The notes beneath the pieces are model-generated. The model searched no databases, was not told where the DNA came from, and saw nothing but the letters and a program-made list of their open reading frames with translations. Positions 51,233-62,551 of a stretch of DNA of 64,000 bases are shown here, in pieces (position 1 is the first letter of the stretch; every line of letters starts with the position of its first letter). Origin of the DNA: Pontibacter deserti. Lineage in GTDB: Bacteria; Bacteroidota; Bacteroidia; Cytophagales; Hymenobacteraceae. A program made the position numbers and the translations under genes. Where the stretch lies: the NCBI RefSeq assembly GCF_023630255.1, contig NZ_JALPRS010000001.1, positions 1,054,001 through 1,118,000 of the forward strand. The letters run 5' to 3'.

Positions 51233-52384
51233 ATGAACCTCTTCGACGTTTATCCTCTCTTTGATATAAATCCGGTGCGTGGCCAGGGCTGCTACGTTTG
51301 GGACGACAAAGGCACCAAATACCTCGACCTGTATGGCGGCCACGCTGTAATTTCTATCGGGCATAGCCACCCGCACTACGTAAAACGCATCGCCCGCCAA
51401 CTTTATGATATCGGTTTTTACTCTAATTCGGTACAAATGCCGATGCAGGAAGAACTGGCTGCTAAACTCGGAGAGCTAAGTGGATACCCTGATTATGGTT
51501 TGTTCTTATGCAATTCTGGCGCCGAAGCCAACGAGAACGCTATCAAACTGGCATCTTTTCATACAGGCCGCAAAAAGATCATCGCATTTAAAGGAGCCTT
51601 CCATGGCCGTACTTCTGCTGCCGTTGCCGCCACCGATAATCCTTCTATCATAGCACCGGTAAACGAAACAGAGAATGTGATTTTCCTGCCTTTAAACGAC
51701 CTGGATGCGTTTGCGCAGGCTATTAACAAGTATGGCTCTGAGCTGGCGGCTGTAATTGTGGAGGGTATACAGGGCGTAGGCGGAGTTCATATTCCTGATA
51801 CAACTTTCCTGAAGGCATTAGCTGCTGGTTGCGAAAGAGTTGGTGCTTTATTGATTCTGGATGAAGTGCAGTCGGGTTATGGCCGCTCAGGTAAATTCTT
51901 TGCACACCAATACGCCGATGTGAAGCCGCAGCTTATTACGGTGGCTAAAGGGATGGGCAATGGTTTCCCGATTGGTGGTGTATTGATCAGCCCGGATATT
52001 GAAGCGAAACATGGCATGCTGGGTACTACTTTTGGTGGTAATTACCTGGCTTGCGCTGCCGGTATCGCGGTGTTGGAAGTGCTTGAAAAAGAACAACTGA
52101 TACAACATGCCAAACTGCTTGGCAACCGCTTACTGCACGAGATCGAAAGGCTACCAAACGTGCGCGAAGTACGTGGTTTAGGTTTGATGATAGGAGTGGA
52201 GCTGGAAGAACCTTGTGGCCCAATTCGAAAAGAGTTGCTTGAGAAGTACCAGATTTTCACTGGCTCATCTTCTGATAAAAATACGCTGCGTTTATTGCCG
52301 CCATTGTGCATGGGAGCCCGCGAAGAAGACAAGTTTTTAACATCGTTCGAGGCTATACTTTGCAAGCTGGAACCACAACTATAA
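51233..52384 (+). CDS. argD: Acylornithine aminotransferase
   Basis: A 383-residue class III PLP aminotransferase. The PLP lysine is in TVAKGMGNGFPIGG; other motifs are FCNSGAEANENAIKLA (as LCNSGAEANENAIKLA), FHGRTSAAVAAT and LILDEVQSGYGRSG. The context fixes the arginine role. argF' starts 2 bp after the stop. Confidence 0.95.
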   Translation: MNLFDVYPLFDINPVRGQGCYVWDDKGTKYLDLYGGHAVISIGHSHPHYVKRIARQLYDIGFYSNSVQMPMQEELAAKLGELSGYPDYGLFLCNSGAEANENAIKLASFHTGRKKIIAFKGAFHGRTSAAVAATDNPSIIAPVNETENVIFLPLNDLDAFAQAINKYGSELAAVIVEGIQGVGGVHIPDTTFLKALAAGCERVGALLILDEVQSGYGRSGKFFAHQYADVKPQLITVAKGMGNGFPIGGVLISPDIEAKHGMLGTTFGGNYLACAAGIAVLEVLEKEQLIQHAKLLGNRLLHEIERLPNVREVRGLGLMIGVELEEPCGPIRKELLEKYQIFTGSSSDKNTLRLLPPLCMGAREEDKFLTSFEAILCKLEPQL

Positions 52385-52386
52385 CT

Positions 52387-53340
52387 ATGAAAAAATATAC
52401 TTCTGTGCACGATGTTACTGATGTTTCTTCATTAGTAAAAGAAGCGCTGCACCTGAAAGAAAATCCATATAAGTATAAATCGCTGGGCGAAAATAAAACG
52501 CTTGGTCTTATCTTCCTTAACCCGAGTTTGCGCACGCGCCTGAGCACGCAGAAAGCCGGACAGAACCTGGGCATGAACGTGCTGGTAATGAACCTGGACA
52601 AAGAAGGCTGGGCACTTGAAACGCAGGATGGTGCCATCATGAACGGAACTACGGTTGAGCACATCAAGGAAGCTGCTGCTGTAATGGGCCAGTACTGTAA
52701 TATCATCGGCATCCGCTCGTTCCCGAAACTGCAGGACAGAGAAGAAGACTACAGCGAAGACCTACTGAACAAATTCATTTCTTATGCCAATGTTCCGGTT
52801 GTAAGCCTGGAGTCAGCTACGCGCCACCCACTGCAAAGCCTTGCCGACCTGGTAACTATAACCGAACAAAAACCAGCTGGTAAGAAGCCGAAAGTAGTGT
52901 TAACCTGGGCTCCGCACGTGAAATCGATTCCGCAATGCGTATCTAACTCTTTTGCCGAGTGGATGCAGCAGGCCGATGTAGAACTGGTAATTACAAACCC
53001 GGAAGGCTACGATCTAGCAGATGAATTTACAAAAGGCTCTACCGTACTGCACAACCAGGATGAAGCGCTAAAAGATGCTGACTTTGTATATGTAAAGAAC
53101 TGGTCGAGCTACGAGCAGTATGGCAAGGTGCTGACAGATGGTGAAGGCTGGATGATGACCAACGAAAAGCTGACTCTAACCAACAATGCCAAAGTAATGC
53201 ACTGCCTGCCGGTACGCCGTAACGTAGAGCTAAGCGACGAGATCCTGGACGGAGCAAACTCACTGGTACTGGAGCAGGCTAATAACCGCACTTATGCTGC
53301 TCAGGCAGTACTTAAGCGCATGCTGGAATCTTTGAAATAG
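52387..53340 (+). CDS. argF': N-acylornithine carbamoyltransferase (succinylornithine type likely)
   Basis: 317 residues. Carbamoyl-phosphate motif SLRTRLSTQKAG near residue 47, HPLQSLADL near 145 and the family HCLPVRRN near 280. It resembles Bacteroides SOTCase and Xanthomonas AOTCase rather than classical ArgF. At the position that is Pro90 in the former and Glu92 in the latter, this protein has Val90 (TTVEH). From memory, replacing that Glu with Val and similar residues turns AOTCase into a succinylornithine enzyme. The in-frame ATG upstream (52306) lies inside argD; 52387 is preferred. Confidence 0.9.
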   Translation: MKKYTSVHDVTDVSSLVKEALHLKENPYKYKSLGENKTLGLIFLNPSLRTRLSTQKAGQNLGMNVLVMNLDKEGWALETQDGAIMNGTTVEHIKEAAAVMGQYCNIIGIRSFPKLQDREEDYSEDLLNKFISYANVPVVSLESATRHPLQSLADLVTITEQKPAGKKPKVVLTWAPHVKSIPQCVSNSFAEWMQQADVELVITNPEGYDLADEFTKGSTVLHNQDEALKDADFVYVKNWSSYEQYGKVLTDGEGWMMTNEKLTLTNNAKVMHCLPVRRNVELSDEILDGANSLVLEQANNRTYAAQAVLKRMLESLK

Positions 53341-53351
53341 ACACAAGATTA

Positions 53352-53411
53352 AAGACACAGGACATAAGATTAATATCTAAGTTTGGTTTAAAGTCTTGGG
53401 TCCTTTGTCTT
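53352..53411. repeat. Interspersed inverted repeat before argB
   Basis: AAGACACAGGAC (53352-53363) and GTCCTTTGTCTT (53400-53411) match as inverted arms at 11 of 12 positions, and resemble the repeat between hisC and hisB. Confidence 0.7.
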
Positions 53412-53425
53412 GAATCCCTAATAAT

Positions 53426-54220
53426 ATGCTGACTATAGTTAAGATTGGCGGAAACGTCATTGATGATCCCGGGTTGCTGCACCGTTTTCTGGTTGATTTT
53501 GCGGCAGTAACTGGTCCTAAGTTGCTGGTGCATGGCGGCGGTAAAATAGCGTCGGCCATTGGCCAGCGGCTGGGCATCGAACCAATACTGGTAGACGGTC
53601 GCCGCATTACAGATTCTGAAACCCTTGAAGTGGTTACGATGGTATACGGCGGCTTGGTAAACAAAAATATTGTAGCACAACTACAGGCTTTGGGCAGCAA
53701 TGCTATTGGCTTAACCGGTGCCGATGCCAACATCATTAAAGCCGAAAAGCGCCCTGTTAAAACGATTGATTATGGTTTTGTAGGCGATGTAAAAGGCCCT
53801 GAAAGTATAAACGTACAGGCGCTGAATGCCATGTTGCAGGCTGGTTTTACGCCTGTTGTAGCTCCACTTACGCACGACGGCAATGGCTCACTACTTAATA
53901 CCAATGCAGATACCGTAGCTTCTGTTTTGGCAATAGCTCTGGCGCAGAAGTATAGCGTGCAGTTGCTTTATTGTTTCGAAAAGAAAGGGGTACTGGAAGA
54001 TGCTGCGGATGATAAATCTATAGTTGAGTTGCTGACGCCGGACAAGTATAAAGAGATGCAGGAGAAGGGACAAGTGTTTGCCGGTATGTTACCGAAACTG
54101 GACAATGCTTTTGCTACACTGCAAAGCGGCGTAAGTATCGTAAAGATCGGACAGTCTGAAGATGTGCTGGCAATGGCCGAAGGTAAAAGTGCCGGAACAA
54201 CTATAGCGCTGGAAGTATAA
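53426..54220 (+). CDS. argB: Acetylglutamate (acylglutamate) kinase
   Basis: 264 residues. It phosphorylates acylglutamate. Motifs: VKIGGNVID with catalytic Lys5, LVHGGGKIASAIGQRLG and NTNADTVASVLA. The short form without an N-terminal arginine-sensing helix suggests it is not feedback inhibited by arginine (inference). argE-like follows after 2 bp. Confidence 0.94.
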   Translation: MLTIVKIGGNVIDDPGLLHRFLVDFAAVTGPKLLVHGGGKIASAIGQRLGIEPILVDGRRITDSETLEVVTMVYGGLVNKNIVAQLQALGSNAIGLTGADANIIKAEKRPVKTIDYGFVGDVKGPESINVQALNAMLQAGFTPVVAPLTHDGNGSLLNTNADTVASVLAIALAQKYSVQLLYCFEKKGVLEDAADDKSIVELLTPDKYKEMQEKGQVFAGMLPKLDNAFATLQSGVSIVKIGQSEDVLAMAEGKSAGTTIALEV

Positions 54221-54222
54221 CT

Positions 54223-55287
54223 ATGACTGAAAAAGAGCTATACCCACAGGCGCTGCAGCTGTTGCAGGAACTGATTAGCATTCCTTCATTTAGTCGCGAA
54301 GAAGATAAAACTGCTGACACCATTTATACTTTCCTGGAGCAACACGGCGTAAAGGCAGAGCGACAGGGAAACAATGTGTGGGCTCGTAACCAGCACTTCA
54401 AACCGGAACTGCCAACTATACTGCTTAACTCGCACCATGATACTGTAAAACCAAACGCCGGTTATACTATAGATCCGTTCACGCCATCTATAAAAGACAG
54501 CAAACTATACGGGCTGGGCAGTAACGATGCTGGTGGTTGCCTGGTGTCCCTGATCGCTACGTTTTTATACTTTTATCCGCAGCAAAACCTGAAGTATAAC
54601 TTTATACTAGCAGCCACCGCCGAAGAAGAAATTTCCGGGACAAACGGACTGGAATCAATACTTCCGCAACTCGGTGAAATAGACTTTGCTATAGTTGGCG
54701 AACCTACGCAAATGCACCTGGCCGTTGCCGAAAAAGGACTGCTGGTACTGGACTGTGTTGCCCACGGAAAAGCCGGACACGCTGCCCGTGAAGAAGGAGT
54801 CAATGCCATTTACGAAGCCCTGTTTGATATCGAGTGGTTCCGCAACTATAAATTTGAGAAAGTCTCGGAAACGCTTGGACCGATAAAGATGAGCGTAACA
54901 GTGTTGCAGGCTGGTTCGCAGCATAACGTGGTGCCGGATACCTGCAAGTTTACCGTAGATGTGCGTGTTACAGACGCTTATAGTTTGGAAGAAGTCTTGG
55001 ATACTGTAAAGCAGCATGTAAAAGCGACCGTTACGTCGCGCTCCGTTCGTTTGCAGCCATCAGGTATTCCGCTTACACATCCTATAGTTCAGGCTGGTAT
55101 AAAACTTGGTCGCAATACTTACGGTTCACCCACTACTTCTGACCAGGCGTTGCTTCGTGTGCCATCTGTAAAACTTGGTCCCGGCGACTCCGCTCGCTCA
55201 CACACTGCCGACGAGTACATTGAACTACAGGAACTAGAAGAAGGTATCCCACTCTATATTCAGATGCTTGAAAAAGTAGTTTTATAG
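54223..55287 (+). CDS. argE: M20 family acylornithine/acylcitrulline deacylase
   Basis: A 354-residue Zn peptidase-fold amidohydrolase. Metal ligands and catalytic acids are visible: LLNSHHDTVKP, GSNDAGGCLVS, AATAEEEISG, IVGEPTQM and the late His in ARSHTADEYIELQELEEG. It removes the N-acyl group, making the pathway linear rather than ArgJ-cyclic. Since the carbamoyltransferase acts on the acylated form, the substrate is probably acylcitrulline. Confidence 0.9.
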   Translation: MTEKELYPQALQLLQELISIPSFSREEDKTADTIYTFLEQHGVKAERQGNNVWARNQHFKPELPTILLNSHHDTVKPNAGYTIDPFTPSIKDSKLYGLGSNDAGGCLVSLIATFLYFYPQQNLKYNFILAATAEEEISGTNGLESILPQLGEIDFAIVGEPTQMHLAVAEKGLLVLDCVAHGKAGHAAREEGVNAIYEALFDIEWFRNYKFEKVSETLGPIKMSVTVLQAGSQHNVVPDTCKFTVDVRVTDAYSLEEVLDTVKQHVKATVTSRSVRLQPSGIPLTHPIVQAGIKLGRNTYGSPTTSDQALLRVPSVKLGPGDSARSHTADEYIELQELEEGIPLYIQMLEKVVL

Positions 55288-55333
55288 TTACCAGATCAAC
55301 AATTTAACAATACAACAATCAATAATTTACCAC

Positions 55334-56668
55334 ATGAAACTCTGGCAGAAAGATATACAGGTACAGGAAGAAATAGAACGTTTTACGGTTGGCAACGACC
55401 GCGAAATGGACCTGGAACTGGCACCGTTTGATATACTTGGCTCGCTGGCGCACACGCGTATGCTGAACCAGGTTGGTCTGTTGGAGCAGAAAGATCTTGC
55501 TGCCGTACAACGCGAGCTGAAACAACTCTACGCCGAAGTAGCACAAGGTAATTTTTTGATTGAAGATGGCGTGGAAGATGTGCACTCACAGGTAGAGTTG
55601 CTACTGACGAAACGCATTGGCGAAGCCGGTAAAAAGATACACAGTGGCCGCTCCCGCAACGACCAGGTTTTGCTTGACCTCAAACTATACATGCGCCACC
55701 AGTTGCGCCAGGTGGTTGAAGCCACTGAGACTTTGTTTCATACTTTACAGAACCTCAGCGAGCAGCACAAAGACAAACTGTTGCCGGGTTACACGCACCT
55801 GCAGGTTGCTATGCCATCATCTTTTGGTTTATGGTTTGGCGCTTATGCCGAGAGTTTAATTGATGATTTGCTGGTTGTCCAAGCTGCTTACCGCATCAGC
55901 AATAAAAACCCGCTTGGCTCGGCAGCCGGTTATGGTTCGTCTTTCCCGCTTAACCGCCAGCTAACTACTGATCTGCTGGGTTTCGAGAGCCTGAACTATA
56001 ACGTGGTTTATGCGCAGATGGGACGAGGCAAAACTGAACGTGTAGTAGCTACTGCACTGACAACTATAGCCGCAACTATAGGTCGTATGGCCATGGACTT
56101 ATGCCTCTACATGAGCCAGAACTTTGCCTTTGTAAGCTTGCCTGATGAACTGACTACAGGCTCCAGCATCATGCCACACAAAAAGAACCCGGATGTGTTC
56201 GAGCTGATCCGTGGCAAGTGTAACAAACTCCAAGGACTACCAAACGAAATCGCCCTGCAAACAGCTAACCTGCCATCAGGTTATCACCGTGATATGCAGC
56301 TTCTGAAAGAGAGCCTTTTCCCGGCTTTTGGTACACTGCTCGACTGCCTGCAGATGGCGAACTACATGCTGCCAAAGCTTATTGTTAAAGACAACATCAT
56401 GCAGGACGAAAAGTATAAATATGCCTTTAGCGTGGAGGTGGTAAACAACGAAGTGCTGCAGGGTGTGCCTTTCCGGGATGCATATAAAAAGGTAGGATCT
56501 GCCATAGCCAATGGTACTTTCGAAGCGCCAACACAAGTGCACCACACCCACGAAGGTAGTATAGGCAACCTGTGCACCGAGCAAATTGCAGTGCAGATGC
56601 AGCAGGTGTTACAGGCCTTTGATTTTACGAAAGTTGATGCCGCTGTAAATGCACTATTGGCAGAGTAG
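55334..56668 (+). CDS. argH: Argininosuccinate lyase
   Basis: 444 residues. It splits argininosuccinate into arginine and fumarate. Fumarase/aspartase superfamily signature GSSIMPHKKNPDVFELIRGK, plus DVHSQVELLLTKRIG, HSGRSRNDQVLLDLKLY and PGYTHLQVAMPSSFG. It is the last arg gene; the spacer before it holds AACAATxxAACAATAC-type repeats. Confidence 0.96.
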   Translation: MKLWQKDIQVQEEIERFTVGNDREMDLELAPFDILGSLAHTRMLNQVGLLEQKDLAAVQRELKQLYAEVAQGNFLIEDGVEDVHSQVELLLTKRIGEAGKKIHSGRSRNDQVLLDLKLYMRHQLRQVVEATETLFHTLQNLSEQHKDKLLPGYTHLQVAMPSSFGLWFGAYAESLIDDLLVVQAAYRISNKNPLGSAAGYGSSFPLNRQLTTDLLGFESLNYNVVYAQMGRGKTERVVATALTTIAATIGRMAMDLCLYMSQNFAFVSLPDELTTGSSIMPHKKNPDVFELIRGKCNKLQGLPNEIALQTANLPSGYHRDMQLLKESLFPAFGTLLDCLQMANYMLPKLIVKDNIMQDEKYKYAFSVEVVNNEVLQGVPFRDAYKKVGSAIANGTFEAPTQVHHTHEGSIGNLCTEQIAVQMQQVLQAFDFTKVDAAVNALLAE

Positions 56669-56685
56669 CAGCTCATACTTTATAC

Positions 56686-57411
56686 TTAGTTCAGGTGGAA
56701 TTTCTGGGGCTTAATATTATTTAGTTTACGCGACGTTTGCAGGAGCGTACCTACTATAAGCGCAACTATAACGGCTAAGCCAATTACAAGGTAGGAGAGC
56801 ACCTTCAGCATTTTTACACTTCTGTCAGCCGACTGGTAAAGCTCCTGCCCAACATCGCCCTGCACGCGGATGAGTGCGTGCAGCGGCTCTAGTAAATTCT
56901 GAAATGCAGTGTAGCCGTTTGTTAAGTATAATTTCCTGGCAAGCCCTTTATTCCCATTTGTACTCAACTGCAATATACTGTTCTGTACCTGTACCAGCTT
57001 TGTGAATTGGGATTTATAGGCAGTCAAGTTTTTTTGCTCCTGATCAACAAGGTAAGTGGTTTCATACTTCTCCATCAGTGCTTCAATGGCCTTGGTATTG
57101 GCATTTATATGTTGATGTAAACTGTCCTGACTGTAGATATTATCAGCCAGAATATGTTCCTCCAGTAACATACGGTTCTGGTAGTACCGCTCCAGTATTT
57201 CCGAAATGTCAAGCGATGGTATCAACCTGTCCTGGTACACCGACTGAAATTTGCGGCCTACCTGCTCCATACTATAGCTCACAAACCAGTTCGCGAAAAC
57301 TATAATCACAAACATCGATAAAAAAGCAACCGCTACTTTATGGCGCTGCTTAAAACTGAAACTCCATCTCATGGTCTGGTTCTTGGTGCTCACTGTAACC
57401 AAGTTAATCAT
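56686..57411 (-). CDS. Four-helix-bundle sensor-like membrane protein (4HB_MCP type, no signalling domain)
   Basis: 241 residues: a membrane helix at about 27-45 (VAVAFLSMFVIIVFANWFV), an extracytoplasmic helical domain (about 50-205) typical of 4HB_MCP sensor domains, a second membrane helix at about 206-230 (VLSYLVIGLAVIVALIVGTLL), and a 10-residue tail. No HAMP, kinase or methyl-accepting domain follows, so it cannot signal by the classical route alone. It is divergent from the amidoligase cluster. The start could be an internal Met (MRWSF, residue 14). Confidence 0.75.
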   Translation of the reverse strand: MINLVTVSTKNQTMRWSFSFKQRHKVAVAFLSMFVIIVFANWFVSYSMEQVGRKFQSVYQDRLIPSLDISEILERYYQNRMLLEEHILADNIYSQDSLHQHINANTKAIEALMEKYETTYLVDQEQKNLTAYKSQFTKLVQVQNSILQLSTNGNKGLARKLYLTNGYTAFQNLLEPLHALIRVQGDVGQELYQSADRSVKMLKVLSYLVIGLAVIVALIVGTLLQTSRKLNNIKPQKFHLN

Positions 57412-57571: not shown

Positions 57572-58288
57572 GTGATCCCGATAAAGATACATACCCAACC
57601 CGACGATTCAACCTGTGGCCCTACCAGCCTGCATGCCGTCTATAAGTATTTTAAAGATCCTATTCCGCTTAGCGAGGTGATAAAGGAGGTGCCGTACCTG
57701 GATGAAGGAGGTACCCTGGAAGTTTTGCTAGCCTGCCATGCATTGCAACGTGGATATAAGGCAACAATATTTACTTATAACCTTAATGTTTTTGATCCAA
57801 CCTGGTTTGGGCTCTCAAATGATGAGCTTATTTCTAAACTGGAGGAACAACTGGAGATAAAAACAGGTAAAAAACTTAAAAGGGCTTCTAAAGCTTACAT
57901 TGAATTTCTGAAGCTTGGCGGAACACTCCGCTGCGAAGATCTTACTATATCTTTATTAAGAACCTTTTTTGATAATGGTATTCCGATGCTAACGGGTTTA
58001 AGTGCAACATACCTGTACCGGAGTGCCCGCGAATTTGCCGATGAAGCTGGCAATTCTGTTTATGATGATGTTCGTGGTTACCCGATGGGTCATTTCGTGG
58101 TGCTTTGTGGCTTTACCGATGATCTGCAACATGTAGTGGTAGCCGACCCTTACCCTGAGAACCCATACTTTAACAATAATTATTACGAAGTCGGACTTTC
58201 GCATTTGCTCAGTTCCATCATGCTGGGCATGTCAACCTTCGATGCAAACCTGCTGGCCATTGAGCCAAAAGAACCCTTAACTGAATAA
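57572..58288 (+). CDS. C39-like cysteine peptidase
   Basis: 238 residues. Papain-like C39 arrangement: Cys in DDSTCGPTSLHAV (residue 15), His in PMGHFVVLCGF (about 192) and Asp in VVADPYPE (about 208). A GTG start is used, giving MIPIKIHTQPDDS; no better ATG fits. No signal peptide, so it acts in the cytoplasm unless exported otherwise. It is the first of four tightly packed genes; the ATP-grasp gene starts 7 bp after its stop. A role in processing or hydrolysing the cluster product is inferred. Confidence 0.82.
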   Translation: MIPIKIHTQPDDSTCGPTSLHAVYKYFKDPIPLSEVIKEVPYLDEGGTLEVLLACHALQRGYKATIFTYNLNVFDPTWFGLSNDELISKLEEQLEIKTGKKLKRASKAYIEFLKLGGTLRCEDLTISLLRTFFDNGIPMLTGLSATYLYRSAREFADEAGNSVYDDVRGYPMGHFVVLCGFTDDLQHVVVADPYPENPYFNNNYYEVGLSHLLSSIMLGMSTFDANLLAIEPKEPLTE

Positions 58289-58295
58289 CCTCAAC

Positions 58296-59768
58296 ATGCG
58301 AAAAATAGTAGTTGTCGATTACCCAAAAGACTGGGAAACGAAGATAGAAGACGTAGAAGTTGTTGATGCCCAGACTTACCTGACAGATACTACTTATACA
58401 GATATAAAAAACGCCAGGATATTTAATCTATGCCGATCATATAAATACCAGAGTGCTGGCTACTATGTGTCGTTGCTGGCCGAGGCGCGTGGTCATAAAC
58501 CTATACCAAGCGTAACTACCATGCAGGACCTTAAAACGCCAACTATAGCGCGAGCCATCACCATGGAAATAAACGACCTGGTACAGAAAAGCCTCGGCAA
58601 ACTGAAGTCAAAAACATTTACGCTGAGTATATACTTCGGGCAGAACGTTGCTGAGAAGTATGAAAAGCTTTGCAAGCAACTGCATGATCTGTTTCAGGCT
58701 CCGCTTTTACGGGCTCAGTTTGTTTATAAGGATGAATGGGTACTGCAAAGTATATCGCCTATACCGGTAACTGAAGTGCCCGAAAACCATAAGCGATACA
58801 TGGTACGTTTTGCGAAAGCATACTTTGCCAGACATCGTTTTGCAGGCGCACGAATTGCCCGTAAAGTATACGACCTGGCTATACTTGTTGATCCCGAAGA
58901 AAAAGCTCCGCCATCTAATGAACGCGCCATTCAGAATTTCGTAGAAGCGGCAGAGCAACAAGGTTTTTACACCGAACTTATCACCAAAGACGATTACCGC
59001 CGACTGGCTGAGTTTGATGCCCTGTTCATCAGAGAAACTACTTCCGTAAATCACCACACGTATAAGTTTGCCCGTAAAGCGTTTGCTGACGGGCTGGTGG
59101 TAATAGACGATCCGGTTTCCATACTGAGGTGTACCAACAAAGTATACCTGGCTGAACTGCTTACCAAAGCGAAAGTACCTGTTCCGAAAACCATGATTAT
59201 CCATAAAGATAACCGGGAGCAGGTAGAGGCTGAGCTAGGTTTACCCTGTGTATTAAAGAAACCGGACAGTTCCTTCTCGCAAGGCGTGGTAAAGGCCAAC
59301 AACAAACAAAGCCTGGAAAAGAAACTGGATGAGATGTTGTCTGATTCAGAATTGATTATAGGCCAAGAATTTACACCAACAGATTTTGACTGGCGGATTG
59401 GGGTACTGGACAAACAGCCGCTTTATGCCTGCAAATATTTTATGGCAAAAGATCATTGGCAGATCTATAACTGGAATGGCAAAAAGAAACAGGACGAAGA
59501 AGGAGATGATGAAGTAGTGCCATTTGAGCAAGTACCATTTCATGTGCTACATACGGCACTAAAAGCTGCCAACCTGATAGGCGATGGCCTGTATGGGGTT
59601 GATATTAAAGAAATAGACGGAAAAGCTTACGTAATAGAAGTAAACGATAACCCAAGTATAGACTCGGGCTGTGAAGATAAAATACTGAAAAAAGAACTAT
59701 ATGCTGCTATCATCAAATCCATTAAACGACGTATTGACAACCATAAAAACTTCAGAACCGATGAGTAG
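58296..59768 (+). CDS. RimK-like ATP-grasp ligase with RLAN-type N-terminal domain
   Basis: 490 residues. The N-terminal region (about 1-200) fits the RimK-like ATP-grasp N-terminal (RLAN) type, starting IVVVDYPKDWE and containing NLCRSYKYQSAGYYVSLLAEARG. The ATP-grasp domain (about 205-485) has CVLKKPDSSFSQGVVK, ELIIGQEFTPTDFDWRIGVL and the metal-binding VIEVNDNPSIDSG. Such enzymes form amide bonds between a carboxylate and an amine, often with amino acids. It overlaps the GCS2 gene by 8 bp. Confidence 0.88.
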   Translation: MRKIVVVDYPKDWETKIEDVEVVDAQTYLTDTTYTDIKNARIFNLCRSYKYQSAGYYVSLLAEARGHKPIPSVTTMQDLKTPTIARAITMEINDLVQKSLGKLKSKTFTLSIYFGQNVAEKYEKLCKQLHDLFQAPLLRAQFVYKDEWVLQSISPIPVTEVPENHKRYMVRFAKAYFARHRFAGARIARKVYDLAILVDPEEKAPPSNERAIQNFVEAAEQQGFYTELITKDDYRRLAEFDALFIRETTSVNHHTYKFARKAFADGLVVIDDPVSILRCTNKVYLAELLTKAKVPVPKTMIIHKDNREQVEAELGLPCVLKKPDSSFSQGVVKANNKQSLEKKLDEMLSDSELIIGQEFTPTDFDWRIGVLDKQPLYACKYFMAKDHWQIYNWNGKKKQDEEGDDEVVPFEQVPFHVLHTALKAANLIGDGLYGVDIKEIDGKAYVIEVNDNPSIDSGCEDKILKKELYAAIIKSIKRRIDNHKNFRTDE

Positions 59769-61020
59769 CCAACCCAAACGCATCCTGCACCTCTTCGAAG
59801 GCTTTGGCGTGGAGCTGGAATATATGATCGTGAGCAGGAAAGACCTGCATGTACTGCCTATTACTGATAAACTGATTTATGATGAAGTAGGGCAATACAT
59901 TTCTGATGTGAAGTTTGGTGAAATAGCCTGGTCTAATGAACTGGTACTGCATGTAGTGGAACTGAAAACACAGGGGCCGGTAAAGTCGCTGGAAGGGTTA
60001 CATCTTAAGTTTCAGGAGCATGTGCAGAAGATAAACCAAATGCTGGAAAAGCACGATGCCATGCTGTTGCCAACAGGTGCACACCCTCTCATGAACCCGG
60101 ACACTGATACGCAACTATGGCCACACGAGCATAATGCAGTGTACGAAGCTTATAACCGTATCTTCGATTGCAAAGGCCACGGTTGGGCAAACCTGCAGAG
60201 TACACACCTGAACCTGCCTTTCGCTAACGATGAAGAGTTTGCCAGATTGCACGCTGCTATTCGTATGCTCTTGCCTATACTTCCGGCTTTAAGTGCATCA
60301 TCTCCTATACTTGATGGCAAGGTTACCGGCATGTTTGATTCACGTTTGGAAGTATACCGCCACAACCAAGGCAAAATTCCAAGCATTACAGGTAAAGTAA
60401 TACCGGAACCAGTATTCAGTAAAGCAGATTATGAAGAGCAGATCTTGAATAAAATGTATGCTGATGTGGCCCCGCATGACCCTGAGGGAACGCTGCAGGA
60501 AGAATTTCTAAATTCGCGTGGCGCTATTGCCCGCTTTGAGCGCAATACCATAGAGATCCGCTTATTGGATATACAGGAAAGCCCGGTTGCTGACCTGGCT
60601 ATAGTTCAGGCAACGGTAGCTGTTCTACAGGCATTGATAGGGGAGCGATGGGTGGCTTTACAGGAGCTTAAAACGTTTGACGAACACAGGCTTTCCAGAA
60701 TATTAGTACAGGTCATTTCTAATGGCCAGGAAACTATACTTACTGATCTGGAATTTCTGCGATGTTTTGGATTTGAGTGTACTGATAACTGTACAGCCGG
60801 AGAACTATGGCGACACCTGGTCAAAGAATGCATCGTGTTGGAAGAACAACCTGAAGTGCAACATGCGCTTAATGTGATACTTTCGCGTGGAAACTTGGCC
60901 AAACGAATTTTAGATGCTACTCAATTAAACCCTGACAATTCAACTATCGCAAAAGTATATACACAGTTGGCGAAATGCCTGCAGAAAGGTGGCGTGTACT
61001 TACCTGAAAAACCATGCTAA
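59761..61020 (+). CDS. GCS2-family carboxylate-amine ligase (glutamate-cysteine ligase-like)
   Basis: 419 residues. The glutamine-synthetase-like GCS2 fold is suggested by FGVELEYMIV (ATP/metal glutamates) near residue 16, ELVLHVVELKTQGP, QSTHLNLPF and NTIEIRLLDIQE. GCS2 enzymes make gamma-glutamyl or other aminoacyl amides. The ATG at 59761 overlaps the upstream stop by 8 bp and the next gene by 7 bp, so the three are translationally coupled. True glutathione synthesis is unlikely from this context, though it cannot be excluded. Confidence 0.87.
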   Translation: MSSQPKRILHLFEGFGVELEYMIVSRKDLHVLPITDKLIYDEVGQYISDVKFGEIAWSNELVLHVVELKTQGPVKSLEGLHLKFQEHVQKINQMLEKHDAMLLPTGAHPLMNPDTDTQLWPHEHNAVYEAYNRIFDCKGHGWANLQSTHLNLPFANDEEFARLHAAIRMLLPILPALSASSPILDGKVTGMFDSRLEVYRHNQGKIPSITGKVIPEPVFSKADYEEQILNKMYADVAPHDPEGTLQEEFLNSRGAIARFERNTIEIRLLDIQESPVADLAIVQATVAVLQALIGERWVALQELKTFDEHRLSRILVQVISNGQETILTDLEFLRCFGFECTDNCTAGELWRHLVKECIVLEEQPEVQHALNVILSRGNLAKRILDATQLNPDNSTIAKVYTQLAKCLQKGGVYLPEKPC

Positions 61021-61742
61021 AATTATTGCTGACCTGCGAACACGGAGGTAACCGGATACCGGAAGTTTATACTTCTTTTTTTGAGGGAAAAGAACAGTTG
61101 TTGGCGTCGCATAAGGGTATTGATATTGGTGCACTGGAATTATTCAGAACACTTGAGCCCTTAGCAGATAAATCTTTTTTTTCTGAAACATCCAGGTTAC
61201 TTGTAGAGCTTAACCGCTCCCTGAACCATGCAAAATTATTCTCTGATATAACCCGGGAACTGGATGATACCATAAAATCAGCTATCCTGAAAGAACATTA
61301 TTTCCCTTATCGTGAGGAAGTAGAGCACCTGATCCATGATTTTGTAATGGCTGGAAGGCAAGTACTGCATGTAGCAGTGCATACCTTTACTCCCGAACTG
61401 GACGGACAAGTTCGTGATGCCGATATTGGCTTGCTTTATGACCCTAAACGCAAGCTGGAGCAAACCTTTAGCCGCACCTGGAAACAGCAGCTTCAAAAGC
61501 AAAGCAGCGAATTACAGGTGCGGTTCAATTATCCATACTTAGGCATTGCGGATGGTTTCCCGACTTATCTGCGACGAAAGTTTACCGAAGAACAATACAT
61601 TGGAATTGAACTGGAAGTAAACCAGAAGTTTAAGTTAAATCAGCCTGAAGTATGGGAAGAAGTAAAGCAGGCTATTTATACTTCTCTGCAGGCTACTTTA
61701 AAACAGTTCAGACCAGAGCTTTCTGAAGAAGAGGAGATTTGA
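61014..61742 (+). CDS. N-formylglutamate amidohydrolase-like hydrolase
   Basis: 242 residues. FGase-family pattern: LLTCEHGGNRIPEVY at the N terminus (metal-binding Glu/His), a HKGIDIGALEL segment, LLVELNRSLNH and HVAVHTFTPELDG with the second His. It belongs to Zn-dependent amide hydrolases related to carboxypeptidases. In this cluster it probably trims or recycles an amide made by the two ligases rather than serving histidine catabolism, as no hut genes are present. Confidence 0.87.
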   Translation: MLKLLLTCEHGGNRIPEVYTSFFEGKEQLLASHKGIDIGALELFRTLEPLADKSFFSETSRLLVELNRSLNHAKLFSDITRELDDTIKSAILKEHYFPYREEVEHLIHDFVMAGRQVLHVAVHTFTPELDGQVRDADIGLLYDPKRKLEQTFSRTWKQQLQKQSSELQVRFNYPYLGIADGFPTYLRRKFTEEQYIGIELEVNQKFKLNQPEVWEEVKQAIYTSLQATLKQFRPELSEEEEI

Positions 61743-61948: not shown

Positions 61949-62551
61949 ATGAACATTAAAAGTTTACTTCAATTAGTCCTGATATTTGTTGCCGGACAGC
62001 TATTCTTTGCTTGTAGCTCAGTTAAATATTATGAGTTTGCCGGAAACAAACAAGCTCCATATTATGAATCTAAGCAAAAGCAAGAACCTGCCACAAAACC
62101 AGTAGAAACTGAGAGCTTGGCTAAAATAGCCATAGAGGCAGCTGAGGATAAAGCTGTTGTAAAAGCTGATGCACAAAAATTATTAGCTTCTACAGAGTCA
62201 AAGGTTGTAGCTGCTCCAGCTAAATTAGCTCCGGTAACCAACGTAGCAGAAACTGCTGCAGCAAACAAAACTTTAGCTGAAGCTGAAGCGCTTGAACTGG
62301 TAAAAGAGCGCGTAGCCAGCATGACAAAAGCTGAGAAAAAAGAGCTTAAAAAGGAATTGAGAGAAGCAATGAAACAGAGCGGGTCCCGAGTTTCTATTGT
62401 AGAGGTTATTTTGGCTGTATTATTGCCTCCATTGGCGGTCTTCCTGCACGATGGTATAGGAACCTCGTTCTGGATAAGCATAATACTTACACTGCTATTC
62501 TGGATTCCGGGAGTGATTTACGCCTTGCTTGTAGTAACAGATACGATCTAA
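61949..62551 (+). CDS. Lipoprotein with C-terminal Pmp3/YqaE membrane domain
   Basis: 200 residues: a lipoprotein signal with lipobox FFAC (Cys22) followed by Ser-Ser; an Ala/Lys/Glu-rich helical middle (about 40-140); and a Pmp3/YqaE two-helix domain (about 148-200, VILAVLLPPLAVFLHDGIG and IILTLLFWIPGVIYALLVV). Lipid anchor and membrane pair on one chain suggest it spans or bridges membranes. Function unknown; Pmp3 proteins affect membrane potential and cation balance. Confidence 0.8.
   Translation: MNIKSLLQLVLIFVAGQLFFACSSVKYYEFAGNKQAPYYESKQKQEPATKPVETESLAKIAIEAAEDKAVVKADAQKLLASTESKVVAAPAKLAPVTNVAETAAANKTLAEAEALELVKERVASMTKAEKKELKKELREAMKQSGSRVSIVEVILAVLLPPLAVFLHDGIGTSFWISIILTLLFWIPGVIYALLVVTDTI

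Follow-up and report, generated by a model that had tools for sequence, protein, structure and literature searches.

Four closely spaced genes of Pontibacter deserti, two for putative amide-forming and two for putative amide-breaking enzymes, raise the question of what such opposed activities might accomplish together, and of whether they belong together at all. The genes lie on the plus strand at 57572..61742 of the window, the 64,000-nucleotide stretch of contig NZ_JALPRS010000001.1 (positions 1,054,001 to 1,118,000) analysed here. An earlier note, made from the letters alone, had read them as a C39-like/ATP-grasp/GCS2/FGase series with spacings of +7, -8 and -7 bp, and both the reading frames and Pfam matches bear this out. 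We find that the ATP-grasp ligase, which carries an N-terminal RLAN domain, is accompanied in genome after genome by a single acylating enzyme, which is of the GCS2 type in some lineages and of the GNAT type in others.

The first gene (57572..58288), with a GTG start, encodes a 238-residue C39-like cysteine peptidase or transferase of papain fold (Peptidase_C39_2, PF13529; 32.8 bits, Pfam cut-off 24). The second (58296..59768; 490 residues) encodes the amide ligase, in which the RLAN domain (PF14401; 167.4 bits, cut-off 25) is followed by a RimK-like ATP-grasp domain (RimK, PF08443; 45.1 bits, cut-off 21); the label RimK-like ATP-grasp, used in the earlier note, agrees with the second of these matches but leaves unnamed the RLAN domain, the most telling part of the protein. 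A GCS2-type carboxylate-amine ligase (59761..61020; 419 residues from its ATG; PF04107, 103.6 bits, cut-off 21) and an accessory FGase-like amide hydrolase (61014..61742; 242 residues; PF05013, 72.8 bits, cut-off 28.9) complete the series. A gap of 7 bp is followed by overlaps of 8 and 7 bp, the first overlap being that given by the ATG at 59761 of a longer frame that opens at 59701, and all four frames are free of internal stops. The only GCS2 gene in the 4.15-Mb host genome is that of the cluster. A second FGase gene (C1:813218-813835) lies away from the RLAN gene and has no NCBIfam match at E 1e-20. Promoter scans, including those for Bacteroidota promoters, and an Rfam scan gave nothing above chance; a role in anti-phage defence was set aside, as the four proteins matched none of the families in the PADLOC models.

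Conservation of the gene cluster

The ATP-grasp alignment, used to scan contigs of public genomes, returned at least 582 loci, of which we retained the 80 best. At least 12 phyla are named in the record titles of these 80, and gut Fibrobacter and groundwater metagenome-assembled genomes (MAGs) are among the carriers. GCS2 adjoins the ATP-grasp gene in 71 of the 80, and all four genes stand together in 32 (34 under the looser limits of an earlier count), the remainder either missing one or more genes or being cut by a contig end. Seven of the 71 GCS2 loci have neither C39 nor FGase adjoining. Median spacings in gene order are +2 bp (n=53), -1 bp (n=71) and -4 bp (n=46), which suggests translational coupling; gaps of more than 150 bp occur at four ATP-grasp–GCS2 and two GCS2–FGase junctions. 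Pairwise distances of the four proteins across the 32 complete loci are correlated (r 0.60-0.84, compared with 0.27 or less in 1000 permutations), a correlation that partly reflects shared species history. The ATP-grasp protein itself is 46-78% identical to 16 aligned homologues, with 93 invariant columns, and shares 59-62% of its residues with proteins assigned by name to Omnitrophica, Aureabacteria and a gammaproteobacterium. The four genes are a conserved unit, beyond chance and not restricted to Bacteroidota, and their families make up a single evolutionary unit. When 469 flanking frames were clustered, no further family reached more than 5 of the 80 loci, and since no other neighbour recurs, we suggest that the unit draws on ordinary cell metabolites.

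Co-occurrence is equally evident in Bacteroidota, of which 395 genomes were sampled evenly. RLAN is present in 44 of these, 43 of them over the cut-off and one (G671) with a broken, weak match. GCS2 of the cluster's family (E limit 1e-30) is found in 30, every one of which has RLAN (Fisher p 1e-34, kinship ignored), and C39 of the cluster's family (E limit 1e-20) in 27, all among the same 30. In 29 of the 30 a stretch of 3 to 4.5 kb was inspected for FGase, which lies just downstream of GCS2 in 20 of them; with the cluster itself this gives 21 of 30. The nine genomes without FGase at GCS2 all have C39 and the three without C39 have FGase, so that each of the 30 carries at least one of the two; in one of them (G486), ATP-grasp and GCS2 are each split in two frames. 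In 25 genomes where C39 is missing from the RLAN neighbourhood, a search of the rest of the genome yielded no C39 apart from a single weak fragment. At closer range, RLAN occurs in 24 of 25 genomes of the genus, the miss being an 87% complete genome, and in 28 of 291 genomes of the order (27 over the cut-off).

The earlier note had looked to conserved co-occurrence as its check and to rarity as its undoing. The order ATP-grasp–GCS2 in 71 of 80 loci and the presence of RLAN in all 30 of the GCS2-bearing Bacteroidota genomes speak strongly for co-occurrence in both sets. Its picture of two ligases and two hydrolases survives insofar as the genes belong together, but the foursome is not obligatory: the core is the RLAN ATP-grasp with one acylating enzyme, and C39 (27/30) and FGase (21/30) are accessory.

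Partners and neighbours of the RLAN ligase

A GNAT accompanies each of the 13 other Bacteroidota RLAN genes that pass the cut-off, as an N-terminal fusion in 12 (L159-L170) and, in L171, beside the RLAN gene and together with a DUF3335 papain-like domain. Conversely, in the 30 GCS2 genomes no GNAT of these profiles lies within 1.5 kb of RLAN (GNATs elsewhere in these genomes were not sought), so that the 43 Bacteroidota loci divide into 30 with GCS2 and 13 with GNAT, none having both and none neither. We extended this tally, again within 1.5 kb of RLAN, to 184 loci from four partly overlapping sets and counted 142 with GCS2, 27 with GNAT, none with both and 15 with neither. In the class of Nitrosomonas, where RLAN occurs in 81 of 369 genomes, the 30 best of the 81 loci comprise 19 with GNAT and DUF3335, two with GNAT alone, two with C39 and GCS2, and seven, with short flanks, that have neither GCS2 nor GNAT. 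A genome-wide search of 19 genomes in which GCS2 does not adjoin RLAN found no GCS2 in ten of GNAT type or in G303, L062, L070, L087, L096, L111 and L114; in the planctomycete MAGs of L068 and L079 it found GCS2 on another contig, without RLAN beside it. In the loci examined, GCS2 and GNAT are mutually exclusive as partners of RLAN.

Whether fused to RLAN or accompanied by DUF3335, the GNATs belong to a single family (hhalign E 6e-31). RimI, an alpha-amine acetylase, is the best GNAT match in NCBIfam for all five GNAT proteins tested and the top match overall for three (L070, L171 and L179), with RimK first in the two fusions; L179 is barely over the RimI cut-off (87.9 vs 86.4 bits) and the other four fall below it. 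The C39 and DUF3335 profiles, in which Cys, His and Asp line up, are likewise related (hhalign probability 95.9, E 6e-9), so that in both kinds of system RLAN is accompanied by an acylating enzyme and, mostly, by a papain-like one. Because GCS2 and GNAT exclude each other as partner, the capping step is probably the same for both, with a gamma-glutamyl cap in the one case and an acetyl cap in the other.

In a quick tree of 125 ATP-grasp rows, GCS2 rows make up a clade (support 98) within which a GNAT clade is nested, a pattern that calls for at least two partner changes. In an approximately unbiased (AU) test on 67 of these rows a single GCS2 clade was not rejected (p 0.43); we accordingly do not retain the nested swap, which is seen on the tree but not upheld by the test.

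Individual loci offer further observations. In a Verrucomicrobia MAG (L070:738-6270), argG, GNAT, RLAN ATP-grasp, lysA-like and dapA-like genes stand in a row, a possible hint, from a single case, at amino acid substrates. Eleven plasmid records match the ligase (E limit 1e-40), and no phage does (E limit 1e-20); no functional context was found in two of the 11 plasmid records, one of them without annotation. A relative on a Pseudomonas aeruginosa plasmid (L209:5908-7497; 45% identity, annotated as RimK family) has no annotated GCS2 or GNAT adjoining and a glutamate ABC transporter set about 2 kb away.

Around the cluster itself, an arginine operon lies just upstream (51233-56668), with argD-like, N-acetylornithine carbamoyltransferase-like, argB, ArgE/DapE-like deacylase and argH genes, of which the argD, carbamoyltransferase and deacylase products are under their curated cut-offs. 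We rejected it as a functional link, as none of the upstream neighbours belongs to a family that recurs among the 80 loci beyond the four of Pontibacter. A 4HB_MCP sensory-domain protein in which no output domain was found is encoded on the minus strand at 56686-57411, and similar frames adjoin the cluster in several loci of the same genus. At 61949-62551, a Pmp3-like membrane domain ends a long N-terminal stretch rich in Lys, Glu and Ala that has a lipoprotein-like start.

Catalytic residues, proposed pathway and its rivals

The C39-like protein retains the conserved Gln, Cys, His and Asp of the papain fold, with Q9, C15, H174 and D192 invariant in 27 rows. It is probably cytoplasmic, because the catalytic Cys at residue 15 leaves no space for a signal peptide. 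At an E limit of 1, Guanylate_cyc_2 is matched by 24 of the 27 members, and weak matches are seen to DUF3335 (10/27), BtrH_N (7/27, best E 0.015) and phytochelatin synthase (3/27, best E 0.002). A bacteriocin-processing C39 peptidase was rejected (PF03412, 18.9 bits, below the cut-off of 22), and no ABC domain was found in the protein or in three flanking genes, one preceding the cluster and two following it. In the GCS2 protein, E19 and E21 (in 27 rows), H109 and H150 (in 26-27) are invariant; the two glutamates form an E-x-E motif that aligns with that of YbdK (1r8g; profile E 0.0014), the sole solved relative found, as do the GIELE and H-P motifs. E9, H10, H33, N67, R68, H119, H123 and E201 of the FGase-like protein are invariant in 26-27 rows, and its closest solved structure, 2odf (Atu2144; profile E 7e-34), is titled hypothetical protein. 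The catalytic residues of all three proteins are likely intact, their roles being those suggested by family membership.

Scores against curated families led us to reject several specific identities: RimK as S6-glutamate ligase (TIGR00768, 67.7 vs 143.4 bits; NF007764, 34.6 vs 331), glutathione synthase (NF009110, 38.6 bits, cut-off 408), and glutamate-cysteine ligase of the cyanobacterial GshA kind or YbdK (TIGR02048, 43.9/249 bits; TIGR02050, 56.5/176.4; PRK13515, 57.2/371). N-formylglutamate deformylase (HutG) was likewise rejected, the FGase protein having no NCBIfam family at E 0.001 although it passes PF05013. The possibility raised in the earlier note, that the GCS2 protein is an ordinary glutamate-cysteine ligase, is at odds with scores so far below the curated cut-offs.

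The reading we favour, which in our judgement stands at about an even chance, is a self-contained pathway in the cytoplasm whose two ATP-dependent ligases together make a small amide or peptide with a capped amine. In a first step, GCS2 would link glutamate, through its gamma-carboxyl, to the alpha-amine of X, an amino acid-like substrate; in a second, the RLAN/RimK-like ATP-grasp enzyme would activate the carboxylate left free on this capped intermediate and couple it to a second amine, Y, a carboxylate-amine joining for which glutathione synthase and RimK are precedents. The C39-like enzyme, with its complete Cys-His-Asp triad, and the FGase-like hydrolase may then undo, process or recycle the product, which is probably a gamma-glutamyl (or N-acetyl) amide. 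We read the RLAN ATP-grasp as the core ligase and GCS2 or GNAT as an interchangeable amine-capping step. A bolder form of the idea, tentative and rather less probable, is that one hidden pathway runs through many phyla with a modular cap, either glutamate (GCS2) or acetate (RimI-like GNAT) and never both; two chemically different caps would then serve one conserved ligase. The core ligase reaches about a tenth of Bacteroidota (44/395) and a fifth of the class of Nitrosomonas (81/369), and a pathway so strongly conserved without a known product marks a gap in bacterial metabolism. The GCS2/GNAT either-or narrows the question to whether the same core amide carries different caps.

Several points weigh against this pathway and its modular cap. 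Substrates, step order and product are ones that we infer. The GCS2 protein is weakly like enzymes of known kind and has a Lys in the motif E-L-K-T where YbdK has E-L-A-T, so that glutamate is not assured as its substrate. Fusion of ATP-grasp to GCS2 was discarded as support: P0241 and P0242, in which RLAN is joined to GCS2 with no recognisable ATP-grasp domain between, look frame-shifted, and P0243 is unconfirmed. The 15 of 184 loci with neither partner include some on short contigs; L062, L096 and G303 are without such a GCS2 genome-wide (a distant GNAT was not searched for in G303 and L096), and L180, L181, L188, L201 and L204, which make up a starred clade of the Nitrosomonas-class sample, have no GCS2, GNAT or papain-like partner in their 1.5-kb flanks. 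No hydrolase of C39 or FGase type stands beside the fused GNAT systems. Few evolutionary events, moreover, may account for the exclusivity of GCS2 and GNAT.

The chief rival, unlikely but weightier than those that follow, holds that the RimK-like ligase extends the C-terminus of a protein or peptide, that a RimI-like GNAT or GCS2 caps an amine and that the papain-like enzyme removes the tag. RimK and RimI are indeed the closest NCBIfam families of the ligase and the GNAT, and RimI modifies a ribosomal protein; GCS2 enzymes, on the other hand, are known for small-molecule substrates, which does not favour a protein tail. RimK is a known modifier of a ribosomal protein and forms an established pair with the tail-trimming protease RimB (PMC12239564), a precedent for a ligase working with a trimming protease. 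Tail modification is nevertheless disfavoured by the missed RimK subfamily cut-off (67.7 vs 143.4 bits), and no target gene presents itself, each neighbour family being confined to at most 5 of the 80 loci.

We consider it improbable that GCS2 makes gamma-Glu-Cys or a variant to which the ATP-grasp enzyme adds a third residue, yielding a glutathione-like thiol for redox or metal binding. Glutathione synthesis in some bacteria and plants does use GCS2 and ATP-grasp enzymes, and the three weak phytochelatin synthase matches among the C39 members would fit such a logic, but the proteins are far under the glutamate-cysteine ligase (43.9/249) and glutathione synthase (38.6/408) cut-offs, and GNAT in place of GCS2 elsewhere would yield no gamma-Glu-Cys. 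Because the host genome carries BshC of bacillithiol and its sole GCS2 is the one described here, the cluster is probably not the host's main thiol pathway. Similarly small is the chance of a catabolic or salvage module in which gamma-glutamylation activates an unusual amine or amino acid and the hydrolases free a usable product: FGase and C39 are hydrolase families, and gamma-glutamylation serves amine breakdown in gamma-glutamyl putrescine pathways, but the unit includes no oxidase or uptake system, no neighbour family recurring in more than 5 of the 80 loci. Least credible is an osmolyte pathway akin to that of N-acetylglutaminylglutamine amide, which also joins a GNAT to an ATP-grasp enzyme and is echoed by weak trio_acet_GNAT matches in three of the five GNAT proteins tested, but the GNATs reach at most 38 of 569 bits, the cluster proteins have no TIGR03103 match at E 0.001, and the carriers include gut Fibrobacter and groundwater MAGs.

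Comparison with known systems

Glutathione synthesis by a GCS2-type GshA and the ATP-grasp enzyme GshB employs the same two ligase superfamilies as the pathway proposed here, but the cluster misses the curated cut-offs widely and adds both the RLAN domain and two hydrolases in the operon. In the butirosin side-chain pathway, the ATP-grasp enzyme BtrJ has a papain-like partner, and a gamma-glutamyl cap is involved. That partner, BtrH, is an acyltransferase with a papain-like domain (PMC10318531). The pairing of ATP-grasp and papain-like proteins is the same as in the cluster, and 7 of 27 C39 members match BtrH_N weakly (best E 0.015), but a carrier protein and aminoglycoside genes are not among the cluster's recurrent neighbours. 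S6 glutamylation by RimK and RimB likewise sets a RimK-like ligase against an antagonistic protease; RimB is retropepsin-like (PMC12239564), whereas the hydrolases of the cluster are papain- and FGase-like, and its ligase misses the RimK cut-off.

With the RLAN (PF14401) systems predicted in 2009, the cluster shares its core enzyme, but their GNAT-DUF3335 protein is replaced by stand-alone C39, GCS2 and FGase; no GNAT fused to a papain-like peptidase stands beside the cluster's ATP-grasp gene, and C39 and GCS2 are found there instead. The prediction, by Iyer et al., reportedly used comparative genomics to place RLAN ATP-grasp genes next to GNAT, papain-like and GCS2 genes, and GNAT-papain and GCS2 are presumably also the neighbours named in the Pfam note on PF14401. 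The open-licence literature searched, which leaves most subscription papers outside, contained no experimental work on RLAN systems. To that prediction, which may already contain them, we add the measured alternation between GCS2 and GNAT and the finding that both hydrolases are accessory.

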